Below are positions 16,912-20,892 of a DNA stretch of 64,000 bases, one piece after another. Numbering within the stretch: position 1 is the stretch's first letter; each line of letters opens with the position of its first letter. This stretch comes from Methylocaldum sp. 14B. GTDB taxonomy: Bacteria; Pseudomonadota; Gammaproteobacteria; Methylococcales; Methylococcaceae. The notes beneath the pieces were generated by a model that saw only the letters and a list, made by a program, of their open reading frames with translations, did no database searches and had not been told where the DNA came from. The translations under genes and the position numbers were made by a program. The stretch lies in the NCBI RefSeq assembly GCF_002005105.1, contig NZ_MSCV01000004.1:124001-188000 (forward strand), written 5' to 3'.

Positions 16912-17253
16912 CAAAAGATAGCGGTTGTTTATCCGGTAAGCTAGAGTAGCGAATAAGAAAGGGCGATGCAAAAATGGTGTTTTGAAGCGCCGACAGTTGA
17001 AGAAGGGGAAAAGAAAACCGAAGGAGACATCTTGCGAACCCCACGCCATGTTGCCGATACGGCTTTCTCTTGCAACACTTTGACATGGGTTGTTGTCGAA
17101 TGTTGCACGACCTATGGAAGGCAGCAGCTCGTCGCAAAGCCGTTGAAAAATGTCGTTAACGGTCTTATTTCAGAAACAGGCATGTCCGGCTTTGTTCTCT
17201 CCAGCGTGCCTGATATGTGAATCCAAGTTTGCGTTTATAAAGGAGGAAATGCC
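16912..17253. other. Intergenic region between CNNM protein and hsp20
   Basis: 342 nt holding both divergent promoters. I searched for a sigma-32 consensus before hsp20 and did not find a convincing one. No gene, repeat or strong hairpin seen. Confidence 0.4.
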
Positions 17254-17760
17254 ATGACCGACAAGCAAGAGAGTCAGACCAAAAAGTCCACCGGCAAAGA
17301 AGTGACGCAGCCGCAAGCGGGGCAATTCCTAAGCCCCTTGGACGAGATCGAGCAATGGTTCGACGAGGTGCGGCGCAACTGGATGCAACCGTTCTTTTGG
17401 GGGCGGGGCTGGCCGGAAAGAGAGTCCGTCTTCGGCGGGCGCGTGCCTAGAGTGGATGTGATCGACCGCGAACCGGAGTTGCTGGTCCGTGCGGAGTTGC
17501 CGGGGGTCAGCAAGGAAAACCTCGATGTCTCGCTGCAGGACAATACACTCAGCATTCGAGCCACGACCCGACGCGAGGAAGAGGAGGAAAAAGGCCAGTT
17601 CTACCGGCGCGAGCTGAGTCGGGGCGAATTTCAGCGGACCATCCGCCTGCCTTGCCCGGTGGAAGGGGATAAGGTCAAGGCGAATTTCAAAGATGGCGTG
17701 CTCGAGTTGACCATTCCCAAGGTGGCCACCTCCAAGCGTAAAAGCATTAAAGTCGAATAA
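17254..17760 (+). CDS. Small heat-shock protein, Hsp20/alpha-crystallin family
   Basis: A 168-aa holdase chaperone. The alpha-crystallin domain spans about residues 62-165: VIDREPELLVRAELPGVSKENLDVSLQDNTLSIRATTRRE, then YRRELSRGEFQRTIRLPCPVEGDKVKANFKDGVLELTIPK. The N-terminal arm is polar with a WFDEV..WMQPFFWGRGW segment. The family's C-terminal I-x-I motif is not evident. A strong AAGGAGG site precedes ATG 17254, and a perfect intrinsic terminator follows the stop. Confidence 0.93.
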   Translation: MTDKQESQTKKSTGKEVTQPQAGQFLSPLDEIEQWFDEVRRNWMQPFFWGRGWPERESVFGGRVPRVDVIDREPELLVRAELPGVSKENLDVSLQDNTLSIRATTRREEEEEKGQFYRRELSRGEFQRTIRLPCPVEGDKVKANFKDGVLELTIPKVATSKRKSIKVE

Positions 17761-17768
17761 CCCATGAG

Positions 17769-17800
17769 GGGCCGTGGGACATGCCCCACGGCCTTTTTTA
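17769..17800 (+). terminator. Rho-independent terminator after hsp20
   Basis: A 9-bp perfect stem GGCCGTGGG (17770-17778) and CCCACGGCC (17785-17793) with a 6-nt loop, followed by six T. It begins within 10 nt of the hsp20 stop. Confidence 0.9.
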
Positions 17801-17818
17801 TGGGCTGGACCAGCGCTG

Positions 17819-18484
17819 ATGCGATCACCGTTTTCACCTCTCTACTTTTTGTTCTTTTTGGGCTTGCTGCTGTGGATTATCTTCAGTATCAAGCTGGGGC
17901 TGATTACCCTAACTTTCCAGAAACTCGGTTTGAATCCGGAATCGGCGCTGACGCTGTTGATTACCTCCTTGCTCGGCAGCGCCATCAATCTGCCTTTGTT
18001 TACGCTGCGGGTATCCGCCGCGCCACCGCCGATTGAAAGAATAGGATACGGCTTGCTGCGCCGGCCGCCGGTGCCTTTTACCGGCCGCACTCAAGTCGCG
18101 GTAAACGTGGGCGGCTGTTTGGTGCCGGTGCTGTTCTCGCTGTACCTGGTCAACAGCTACAGTGTTCCGCCTTTGCAAATTATTGCGGCTACGGCTTTTG
18201 TCGCTTCGGTCAGCTACTTCATGAGCCGGCCCATTCCGGGCGTCGGCATCGGCATGCCGGTCTTGGTCGCTCCGCTCGCGGCGGCTCTGGCCGCCATTTT
18301 CCTGGGAGAGGAATATCGGGCTCCTCTCGCCTATATCTCGGGATCGTTGGGGGTCTTGATCGGTGCCGATCTCTTGCGCCTGAAGGATATTCGCCGAATG
18401 GCGGCTCCGATTGCATCCATCGGAGGCGCCGGCACTTTCGACGGCATTTTCATAACCGGCCTGGTGGCAGTGCTCTTGAGCTGA
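17819..18484 (+). CDS. DUF1614 family membrane protein
   Basis: A 221-aa integral membrane protein with about six to seven hydrophobic segments (FLFFLGLLLWIIFSIKLGLI, ALTLLITSLLGSAINLPLF, VAVNVGGCLVPVLFSLYLV, IIAATAFVASVSYF and others). The NVGGCLVP, RPIPGVGIGMPVLVAP and SGSLGVLIGADLL motifs and final GGAGTFDGIFITG match DUF1614 (PF07758). Function unknown. The start is set at ATG 17819 because earlier in-frame codons lie inside the hsp20 terminator. A CarS-like gene follows 55 nt downstream; the two probably form a unit. Confidence 0.8.
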   Translation: MRSPFSPLYFLFFLGLLLWIIFSIKLGLITLTFQKLGLNPESALTLLITSLLGSAINLPLFTLRVSAAPPPIERIGYGLLRRPPVPFTGRTQVAVNVGGCLVPVLFSLYLVNSYSVPPLQIIAATAFVASVSYFMSRPIPGVGIGMPVLVAPLAAALAAIFLGEEYRAPLAYISGSLGVLIGADLLRLKDIRRMAAPIASIGGAGTFDGIFITGLVAVLLS

Positions 18485-18539
18485 AGCGGCGACATTCTCG
18501 AATTGCGGTACCGGTTTTGGGCGGCCGATTACGGTGACA

Positions 18540-19019
18540 ATGCTGACTCTTAAACTTCTATTCCTGCTAATGGCCGCTAACGGCGTTCCCATACTGATCA
18601 ACAAGGGACTGGGCGAGCGTTTGGCATGGCCTATAGACGGCGGCGCGCATTTCGTCGACCGGCGGCCGCTGTTTGGCTCGTCCAAGACCTGGAGAGGGTT
18701 CATTGCTGCGATTCCGGCTACCGGACTGGCCGCCGCGGGGGTAGGATTTCCCTTCGAGCTGGGTCTTTGCATCGGCGCCACGGCGATGCTGGGCGATCTC
18801 TTTTCCAGCTTCATCAAGAGGCGTCTTGGTGTTCCGGCCAGTGGCATGGCATTAGGACTGGATCAAATTCCGGAGTCTTTGTTCCCTTTACTTGCCGTGC
18901 GTGTCGAGCTGGGTTTGGAGCTTATCCATGTGGCCGGTCTCGTCGCCGGCTTTACATTCCTGGAACTCGTGGTCTCGCGTATCCTTTTCCAGCTCCGGAT
19001 ACGCGAGCAGCCCTACTAG
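18540..19019 (+). CDS. CDP-archaeol synthase (CarS)-like membrane protein
   Basis: A 159-aa polytopic protein of the CarS/DUF46 family (PF01864), related to CdsA-type cytidylyltransferases. Visible motifs: NGVPILINK, the WPIDGG and GSSKTWRGFIAA stretch, GDLFSSFIKRRLG with the catalytic-type Asp and Lys, and GLDQIPE, which align with the CDP-binding positions of archaeal CarS. In archaea CarS activates unsaturated archaetidic acid with CTP; in a bacterium the substrate is unknown. ATG 18540 preferred over GTG 18534. It follows the DUF1614 gene, and its stop overlaps the convergent phosphoesterase stop within CTAG. Confidence 0.75.
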   Translation: MLTLKLLFLLMAANGVPILINKGLGERLAWPIDGGAHFVDRRPLFGSSKTWRGFIAAIPATGLAAAGVGFPFELGLCIGATAMLGDLFSSFIKRRLGVPASGMALGLDQIPESLFPLLAVRVELGLELIHVAGLVAGFTFLELVVSRILFQLRIREQPY

Positions 19020-20077
19020 GTCGAGCGCAACTGATGCAGGGTTATCTCGGGCGGGCAGTTCAAACGCACATCCACGATGCTGACACCGCTGCCGGCTGAT
19101 GTGTAACCCTGCAAGGAGTGGTAACGCCATGGTCCGTTGCAGAACGCTCTAGGGGCGTTTGCGTTGAGAATGATGGGAATGCCTCCGGGCAGGCAAATCT
19201 GGCCGCCGTGCGTGTGGCCGCTCAGCATCACGTCGAAATTGGCATAGGCCGCGTGCCGATACATCTCCGGCGAGTGCGAAAGCAGAATGGAAACCGACTC
19301 CTGTGGAATTTGATCGGTGGCTTTCTCGATGTTGTCGGCGCGGTAGTAGTGAGGGTCGTCGATGCCGGCGAGATAGATGGTCGCATCGCCGCGAGTTAGG
19401 GCGATAGACTCGTTCAACAGCATGTGGATTCCCAGGTTTTCCAGCCCAGGCGACATGCGGATGGTGTCATGATTGCCCAGGACGCCGTAGACCGGCCCCT
19501 TCAGAAACGGACGAACCTTTTGCATGGCCGTCAGCGTCGGTTCGTACGGACCATAGGTTTGTGCACGAAAATCGCCGGTCAGAACGCAGATGTCGTAGCC
19601 ATCGACCCGGTTTACGGCGTCGATGAGCGTGTCGGGAATATCCTCCGAGATGTCCAGATGAAGATCGGTAATGTGCAGCAGAGTAAAACCGTCGAACGCC
19701 CGCGGGAGCCGTTCGAGCTTGATCTCGTTATGACGGATTTGGATGGTTCGGGCATTTTCGCGGCCTCGGTTGTGCAGCCACAAGAGTCGCAGGATATGGC
19801 GCATCAAGCCATGAACGGAATACCAATTTTCGATATGGAATAAAGTGCGTCCCTGGCCGAACACGCGAGCCTCGAAATCATGCTCTATGCCCAGTCTTTG
19901 GTTGAGGTGGCAGCGCCCTACCCGCCTTTCCAACCTTCGATAGGTCTCTGAATCGATGGGCGGACAACGGAGGTGGCCGAGGGGAATGGATTCTGACGCG
20001 AGCGCCGCGTCTCCGGCCGCCTTCAGCGGCGGAAAGGGAAAGCGCTGGCCCGGTGGCGTGGGCTGCATTCGCGTCAA
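19016..20077 (-). CDS. Calcineurin-like metallophosphoesterase (YaeI/LpxG type)
   Basis: Up to 353 aa. Metal-binding motifs of the family are complete: HITDLHLD, LTGDFRAQ, GVLGNHD, LLSHSPE and SGHTHGGQICLPG. This subgroup cleaves phosphodiester or pyrophosphate bonds; relatives act in UDP-diacylglucosamine hydrolysis, but the substrate here is not known. There is a 110-aa extension before the catalytic domain that lacks a signal peptide. A TTG start at 20077 overlaps the upstream gene's stop as TTGA, favouring coupled translation; ATG 20068 is an alternative start. Confidence 0.8.
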   Translation of the reverse strand: MTRMQPTPPGQRFPFPPLKAAGDAALASESIPLGHLRCPPIDSETYRRLERRVGRCHLNQRLGIEHDFEARVFGQGRTLFHIENWYSVHGLMRHILRLLWLHNRGRENARTIQIRHNEIKLERLPRAFDGFTLLHITDLHLDISEDIPDTLIDAVNRVDGYDICVLTGDFRAQTYGPYEPTLTAMQKVRPFLKGPVYGVLGNHDTIRMSPGLENLGIHMLLNESIALTRGDATIYLAGIDDPHYYRADNIEKATDQIPQESVSILLSHSPEMYRHAAYANFDVMLSGHTHGGQICLPGGIPIILNANAPRAFCNGPWRYHSLQGYTSAGSGVSIVDVRLNCPPEITLHQLRST

Positions 20078-20382
20078 GGCATCACATGATTCAAAAGCTT
20101 GGCCAGCTTGCCCACCGCATCGTACACGACCGGAACGGCATCGCCTATGCGGGACGGCTCCTTGACGGCTCTTTCGACCCGAGCCGCCGCTTGGTTCATG
20201 GCCTGAACCGCCTGCTGGTAGACCGGTGACGAGCTGCTGATGGTGATATTGACAAGGTCGATTTTCTGCTGAAACAGTTGATCAAGCAGTTCGTCCACCT
20301 GATCGGCTTCGGGCAGCTTTTTTTCGCTCAGGGTTTCCAAGGCGCGAATCGTGCGTTGCAGGTTCTGAATAAGACTTTCCAT
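20074..20382 (-). CDS. Small alpha-helical hypothetical protein
   Basis: A 102-aa protein predicted to be almost wholly helical: MESLIQNLQRTIRALETLSEKK, then DQVDELLDQLFQQKIDLVN and AVQAMNQAAARVERAVKEPSR. The heptad-like spacing suggests a coiled coil. No recognised domain. It is translationally coupled to the phosphoesterase by a 4-nt overlap, so they are likely partners in one transcript. Function unknown. Confidence 0.65.
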   Translation of the reverse strand: MESLIQNLQRTIRALETLSEKKLPEADQVDELLDQLFQQKIDLVNITISSSSPVYQQAVQAMNQAAARVERAVKEPSRIGDAVPVVYDAVGKLAKLLNHVMP

Positions 20383-20535
20383 TTTTTTACACCTTCACGA
20401 GCGATTGTTTACAAACATTGAACGAAATCACACGGAGTTCGTCCAGAGCTTGTTGTATTCATTCTCTTGCCATATTCGTGTTAACTATTTTCGCTTAATC
20501 CGCCTCAATAAAAAAATACGCTAACAGAGCTTTCC

Positions 20536-20892
20536 ATGAACATTGCAGCGATACAACAGGCTCTACGAGAGTTTGCCCGTGACAGAGACTGGGACCAATT
20601 CCACAGTCCGAAAAATCTCGCGATTGCGCTTTCCGTGGAGGCGGCGGAACTGCTGGAGCGTTTTCAATGGCTTAAGGATGATGAATCGCATCGTCTGGCC
20701 GAAAATCCCGAAGATTATCGCGCAGTGCGGGAGGAGATCGCCGACGTTCTGATTTATCTGCTGCGGCTGGCCGACCTCATGAGTATCGATTTGGAGGAGG
20801 CCGTGCAGGAAAAGATGCTGAAGAACGCTGAAAAGTATCCTGTCGAATTGGCCAAGGGAAACGCGGTGAAATACAATCGGCGCGACCAATAA
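20536..20892 (+). CDS. MazG-like nucleotide pyrophosphohydrolase
   Basis: A 118-aa all-alpha NTP pyrophosphatase of the dCTPase/MazG-like superfamily. The metal-binding EEIADVLIYLLRLAD motif (E-x-x-D) and the earlier AIALSVEAAELLERFQWL (E-x-x-E) are clear, as is the N-terminal REFARDRDWDQFHSPKNLAIAL. It should hydrolyse non-canonical or excess nucleoside triphosphates to the monophosphate. Single-domain form. hflD begins 51 nt downstream. Confidence 0.88.
   Translation: MNIAAIQQALREFARDRDWDQFHSPKNLAIALSVEAAELLERFQWLKDDESHRLAENPEDYRAVREEIADVLIYLLRLADLMSIDLEEAVQEKMLKNAEKYPVELAKGNAVKYNRRDQ

Follow-up and report, generated by a model that had tools for sequence, protein, structure and literature searches.

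Work on CarS has treated it as an enzyme of archaea, and PMC9385802 describes it as keeping, together with CdsA, archaeal and bacterial lipids apart; the archaeal protein used for comparison here is ApCarS (PDB 5GUF). LpxG, the UDP-diacylglucosamine pyrophosphatase of Chlamydia, associates with the membrane and, as an Mn2+ enzyme, cleaves a UDP-lipid at its pyrophosphate (PMC4807358). For gene layout, the nearest described arrangement is the convergent excludon, with overlapping 3' transcripts and no terminator between the genes (PMC7154746, in its Figure 3 legend). A literature search of partial coverage found no report of a convergent pair of a CarS-like gene and a phosphoesterase gene, and nothing on DUF1614, on CDP-archaeol synthase with metallophosphoesterase, or on LpxG with YaeI. 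Such a pair lies in the window analysed here (64,000 nucleotides of the Methylocaldum sp. 14B contig NZ_MSCV01000004.1, positions 124,001 to 188,000; assembly size 5.6 Mb). The pair, a CarS-like gene meeting tail to tail the gene of a calcineurin-like metallophosphoesterase (MPE), is a reproducible module. The analysis documents its homologies, the predicted fold and conserved core, the joint presence of the two genes, their convergent overlap, and their occurrence on plasmids and in varied surroundings.

The CarS-like protein and its distribution

The CarS-like gene (18540 to 19019, + strand) encodes a homologue of CTP:lipid-phosphate cytidylyltransferases with 159 residues from ATG 18540, GTG 18534 being an alternative start, and its frame carries the GDLFSSFIKRRLG and LDQIPE motifs that the initial annotation had reported. 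Its score against the PF01864 profile is above the Pfam gathering score (49.2 bits, cut-off 22, E 8e-13), and its score against the CdsA family PF01148 is just under the cut-off (23.1 and 24 bits), so that its sequence places it with CarS rather than among CdsA isozymes, as had been proposed. Chance is excluded at such scores for this predicted family assignment and for the PF07758 match of the neighbouring DUF1614 protein. The NCBIfam equivalog for archaeal CDP-archaeol synthase (NF003114) is not reached (68.4 bits, cut-off 148). In a PDB sequence search the sole match at E up to 1 was 5guf, CDP-archaeol synthase (E 1.6e-6), and an AlphaFold2 model built from 25 aligned proteins (pLDDT 91.7) matches the whole fold of 5GUF with Z 17.2 and an rmsd of 1.8 Å across 142 of its 159 residues; the second-ranked chain reaches Z 4.1.

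Although the NGxP, P[VI]D, GxxKT, GDxxSSFxKRR and LDQ core of archaeal CarS is recognisable in the bacterial protein, identity in structural alignments is just 27–31%. Twenty-eight columns are invariant among 25 aligned CarS-like proteins, including N14, D33, T50, G85-D86, K93-R94-R95 and D108. Where 5GUF reads LDQLDF, the bacterial proteins read LDx[ILV]PE: this motif occurs in 103 of the 104 in which a pattern found the GD...KR core, out of 106 distinct proteins, and the two missed by the pattern are one with LDQIPE by eye (L228) and one that is frameshifted (L230). The predicted catalytic frame is retained, with a specific substitution (Pro-Glu) at a usually acidic place that binds metal in CdsA; with Pro-Glu following LDQ instead of the acidic residue, the customary reaction might be changed or even lost.

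CdsA shares the CTP-transferase superfamily with the CarS-like protein, and the GD..KR and LDR/LDQ region is recognisable in both; the 159 residues of the latter contrast, however, with 329 and 360 in the host CdsA frames (LDRIDS, LDRLDS). As the host genome has these two CdsA genes (L057 and L058, 235.7 and 186.5 bits, one with LDRLDS and the other with LDRIDS), a second CTP:lipid route would be an extra. The bacterial gene further differs from archaeal CarS in having an MPE partner and a host without GGGP synthase over the cut-off. With two CdsA genes and no such synthase, it is explained neither by missing housekeeping CDP-diacylglycerol synthesis nor by an archaeal ether lipid, and the label 'CDP-archaeol synthase' on the records of the Bosea and Methylobacterium plasmid genes described below is probably misleading.

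The CarS-like proteins form a patchy bacterial family. Named genomes yielded at least 454 confirmed relatives among 590 candidates; the best 80 of these at least 454, kept for gene calling (79 with a CarS call), come from Alpha-, Beta- and Gammaproteobacteria, three Nitrospirales, one Terriglobia and one Verrucomicrobiota record. When 397 genomes were sampled evenly across the phylum, CarS was near full length in 10, one of them with an in-frame stop (G162), and G194 had a further, frameshifted partial copy; 157 genomes matched in all, and 146 of these had short matches (mostly at positions 43–104 among those listed) that were taken as CdsA. Among 61 relatives, 36 carry CarS, counting one copy in two pieces (G029) and leaving a G014 fragment uncounted, and PF01864 alone gave 35 of 61, including a match in G055 judged to be a CdsA cross-match. 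In the CarS tree most deep branches are poorly supported; the Terriglobia protein groups with a Hyphomicrobiales one (support 99/80), which is compatible with inter-phylum transfer. The gene also lies on three plasmids: in Bosea, with MPE at a 7-nt overlap and beside GroEL; in Methylobacterium nodulans, with MPE 12 nt past CarS; and in Variovorax, where the CarS region is unannotated in the record.

Several minor observations belong with this distribution. Fragments of CarS and MPE lie side by side in one contig (G014:C200), and other broken copies are the frameshifted CarS of G194:C1, the CarS with an in-frame stop of G162:C1 and the MPE with in-frame stops of G293:C1. A record titled Methyloversatilis universalis (L099, DYIL01000023.1) holds a CarS 84% identical to that of the window, and its title looks wrong. 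The PHROG family phrog_32313 (function not assigned) resembles the CarS-like protein at 52.1 bits, and tblastn of that protein against 50,697 phage records gave nothing at E 1e-3. A defence or phage origin was considered and rejected, CarS, MPE and DUF1614 having no PADLOC match. Likewise rejected was a link to hopanoids: squalene-hopene cyclase is present in 49 of the 397 phylum genomes but in only four of the 10 with near-full-length CarS (G000, G012, G162, G171), and so is not required.

The convergent phosphoesterase

MPE is encoded on the opposite strand (19016 to 20077, −) and matches PF00149 above the Pfam gathering score (40.1 bits, cut-off 21.5). Its start codon is uncertain, the conserved region beginning near residue 43. 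Against the profile of its own family (A2), which was built with MPE included, it scores 572.7 bits, and D138, H140, D169, H203, D204, H288 and H290, invariant among 26 aligned members, correspond to the metal motifs of calcineurin-like enzymes as given in PMC4807358. The best named models for MPE are YaeI and LpxG, both far under their cut-offs. The YaeI phosphodiesterase (PRK11340, NF008460), the top named model at 78.9 bits against a cut-off of 188, matches only from residue 125 of 353, whereas MPE has an additional conserved N-terminal region. LpxG (NF033458; 55.3 bits, cut-off 350) shares the calcineurin-like metal motifs; its N-terminal transmembrane helix, however, has no counterpart in MPE by hydropathy (no 19-residue segment above 1.6, maximum 1.0), and the host of MPE already has LpxH (293.3 bits, cut-off 190.35), which is why MPE was rejected as the host's lipid A hydrolase and is not needed for lipid A. 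PDB sequence searches returned nothing for MPE and nothing for DUF1614. The structural neighbours of MPE are generic phosphoesterases, for example Mre11 and GpdQ, and also purple acid phosphatases; that LpxH and LpxG are not among the best 50 structural matches listed proves nothing.

Both stop codons of the pair lie inside one CTAG palindrome (19016 to 19019), giving a 4-nt tail-to-tail overlap. We compared 106 distinct CarS loci (130 given, less 11 without CarS and 13 duplicates), a sample weighted to the query's order and its nearest relatives, and found MPE convergent with and at most 600 nt from CarS in 81. The two genes overlap in 35 loci, by 7 nt in 22 and by 4 nt in 10, and are 0–50 nt apart in another 38; all 82 adjacent 3' MPE frames are convergent and none is codirectional. 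Among the 25 loci without a near MPE, four reach a contig end within 640 nt and one (L129) has MPE 2.7 kb away. None of three Nitrospirales loci has MPE beside CarS (L113, whose contig ends 392 nt past CarS, L115 and L132). Across the 79 named loci with gene calls (from the best 80 of at least 454 relatives), a metallophosphoesterase lies within five genes of CarS in 60, and every other recurring family in at most eight.

No conserved third gene emerged: archease, RtcB, HSP20, DUF1614, HflD, a MazG-like protein, pterin dehydratase and a 102-aa protein are seen repeatedly in the order, each in no more than eight of those 79 loci. Outside the pair the flanks vary (GuaA with IMP dehydrogenase, CheR, cytochrome b561, NUDIX, Usp, NAD synthetase and others), and of 20 flanking proteins scanned from 13 loci, 17 had Pfam matches to assorted families. 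Archease and RtcB (RNA ligase) genes are divergent neighbours of CarS, adjoining it or lying near, in several lineages of the order (L059, L061, L063, L064, L065, L078, L087 and L097). The 102-aa protein, of no clear family, is encoded upstream of MPE on the same strand (window 20074–20382) and 15 loci of the neighbourhood set retain it.

A generic scan listed no terminator-like site between CarS and MPE, and the same scan missed a clear hairpin elsewhere in the window (17770–17799); a promoter scan of 17000–20600 found no promoter-like site. With convergent genes and no listed terminator between them, the arrangement may resemble a convergent excludon, to judge by the geometry of the open reading frames.

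Co-occurrence, counted with a dedicated MPE profile, follows the same lines. In the phylum sample MPE is present in nine of the 10 genomes with near-full-length CarS and in two of the 387 others; the tenth is G162, whose CarS has the in-frame stop, and counting G194 the figure is nine of 11. The threshold of at least 430 bits admitted 11 genomes and left out G293 (331 bits, two in-frame stops), G132, G117 and G097 (290, 250 and 216 bits). Among the 61 relatives, MPE accompanies CarS in 31 of 36 genomes and is found in one of the 25 without it; these 32 had E <1e-130, with G014 (two fragments), G008 and G049 (110–126 bits) left out. The five relatives with CarS and no MPE are G029, G032, G035, G037 and G049 (completeness 78, 70, 83, 87 and 99%, respectively), and MPE occurs without CarS in G023, G234 and G295. 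CarS sequences missed by gene clustering in G040 and G057 were placed by separate searches. The genomes are related rather than independent, and Fisher values are therefore not relied on. Distance matrices for CarS and MPE, computed for 78 of the 81 pairs (three short ones left out), correlate at r 0.73 (rank correlation 0.54), the best of 1000 permutations reaching 0.12; such correlated distances would also arise from co-transfer alone, with no shared function.

Proposed function and competing readings

Our preferred reading, which we hold tentatively, is that the CarS-like protein is a CDP-lipid synthase coupled with a phosphoesterase whose role is to take off either the CMP of that lipid or a phosphate of its product. 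Judging from its fold and residues, the CarS-like protein would have an intramembrane site of the CarS type for CTP and Mg2+ and would move CMP to a bacterial lipid phosphate, producing a CDP-lipid. MPE, a putative two-metal phosphoesterase with no transmembrane helix, would probably attach to the membrane by its conserved N-terminal region, and its target would be either the phosphoanhydride of the CDP-lipid or a phosphate carried by the product made directly from it, by analogy with the cleavage of a UDP-lipid by LpxG; because MPE is far under the LpxG and YaeI cut-offs and its structural neighbours are generic, the CDP-lipid substrate is a guess. Together the two enzymes would be a self-contained module of membrane-lipid metabolism in bacteria, passed on horizontally, that sets the level of a side CDP-lipid pool apart from housekeeping CdsA. 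In their overlapping convergent layout strong expression of one gene would lower that of the other, although overlap at the level of open reading frames says nothing about expression. A widespread bacterial branch of CarS that usually comes with a second enzyme, in a host with two CdsA genes, suggests that a second route of CTP:lipid activation may exist in many Gram-negative bacteria; since that second enzyme is a hydrolase and each gene can be deleted by itself, the lipid can be sought directly.

A sequential pathway is the alternative that survives best, and we regard it as possible if somewhat doubtful: CarS would make the CDP-lipid, a housekeeping CDP-alcohol transferase would add a phosphorylated head group, and MPE would remove the phosphate in the manner of a PGP phosphatase, yielding a special phospholipid. 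The co-occurrence of CarS and MPE fits this scheme equally, and purple acid phosphatases and the glycerophosphodiesterase GpdQ are among the structural neighbours of MPE. The usual layout for a linear pathway, however, is codirectional genes, and none of the 82 adjacent MPE frames runs in the same direction as CarS; nor was a CDP-alcohol transferase among the 20 neighbouring proteins scanned.

Within the preferred reading of a coupled synthase and hydrolase, a more specific version is unlikely: a portable make-and-break switch, in which the LDx[ILV]PE CarS would make a non-housekeeping CDP-lipid, MPE would destroy it and the tail-to-tail layout would render their expression mutually exclusive. 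If the switch were true, the CDP-lipid would be a regulated pool or signal in bacteria.

It is distinctly unlikely that CarS is a stress or backup CdsA that turns phosphatidic acid into CDP-diacylglycerol, with MPE unrelated to it. The near-threshold PF01148 score favours such an activity, as does the presence of stress-type genes at certain loci (HSP20 in the window, GroEL beside the Bosea plasmid copy, Usp at L145), but the host already has two CdsA genes, and an unrelated MPE would not be expected to accompany CarS where the two are unlinked. Both are present and unlinked in four genomes, on different contigs in G006, G030 and G116 and far apart on one contig in G015.

The same four genomes speak against mere hitchhiking, an improbable reading in which an overlapping convergent pair moves as one piece of DNA, with no common function, because separation would damage both stops. 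The 4- or 7-nt overlaps seen at 32 of the 106 loci, the varied flanks and the plasmids are what it would lead one to expect; the 38 loci with a gap of 0–50 nt rather than an overlap are not.

DUF1614 and the remaining readings

Upstream of CarS and codirectional with it, at a gap of 55 nt, lies the gene of DUF1614, a lineage-specific neighbour and a membrane protein of 221 aa by its hydropathy segments (17819 to 18484, + strand; PF07758 183.5 bits, cut-off 23.9, above the Pfam gathering score). It is preceded by a gene for an HSP20 small heat-shock protein (17254 to 17760, + strand; PF00011 79.8 bits), a recurrent neighbour of DUF1614 in the order, and between the two is a terminator-like hairpin with T6 (17770 to 17799, + strand; RNA fold of 17760–17806 at −31.5 kcal/mol, z −5.1). 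ATG 17819 is likely the true start of DUF1614, as a longer frame from 17774 would begin inside this hairpin.

The initial annotation had put CarS and DUF1614 together as a possible membrane-lipid module. DUF1614 does stand beside CarS in the window; the conserved partner is instead the next gene, the convergent MPE, which ends at the last bases of the interval (17819–19019) then singled out. The proposed co-occurrence of PF01864 and PF07758 holds within the order, where CarS is present in 24 of 26 genomes with DUF1614 (and DUF1614 in 24 of 36 with CarS, among 61 genomes), but it does not extend further: DUF1614 is within five genes of CarS in seven of the 79 named loci from the best 80 of at least 454 relatives (six with methanotroph titles and one Methyloversatilis), as compared with 60 for MPE, and it is found in four of the 10 phylum genomes with near-full-length CarS, or two of eight once two of the window's family are set aside, being adjacent solely in the window's own genome among the 397 sampled. 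DUF1614 thus does not define the system. MPE itself is present in 25 of the 26 DUF1614 genomes of the order.

These counts make it quite improbable that CarS and DUF1614 act jointly on a membrane lipid, whatever the 24 of 26 within the order and the local proximity suggest. The two genes are adjacent in the window's genus (four genomes), G006 and G030, and two or three genes apart, with archease and RtcB between, in G007 and six genomes of family f5; elsewhere in the order they are apart. One further called gene stands between DUF1614 and CarS in G007 and G051. DUF1614 may be a helper in methanotrophs.

The family PF01864 is that of archaeal CDP-archaeol synthase, but it is scarcely credible that this bacterium makes ether lipids of the archaeal type, given the unreached NF003114 equivalog, LDx[ILV]PE in place of LDQLDF, and a host that has two CdsA genes and LpxH and in which GGGP synthase (PF01884, the sole ether-lipid enzyme checked) appears only as fragments of 21.8 and 21.1 bits against a cut-off of 23.9.

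Two observations concern DUF1614 itself. Exactly two acidic residues are invariant in 15 aligned proteins, D184 (in GAD) and D208 (in GGAGTFDGIF); intramembrane proteases have paired aspartates, which this pair faintly recalls, at a short spacing and as a lead only. HSP20 lies directly upstream of DUF1614 in 11 of 29 DUF1614 loci, and in none of the seven outside the order, and the HSP20-DUF1614 order recurs even where CarS is elsewhere (L067–L070, L079, L080, L084, L086, L088 and L091).
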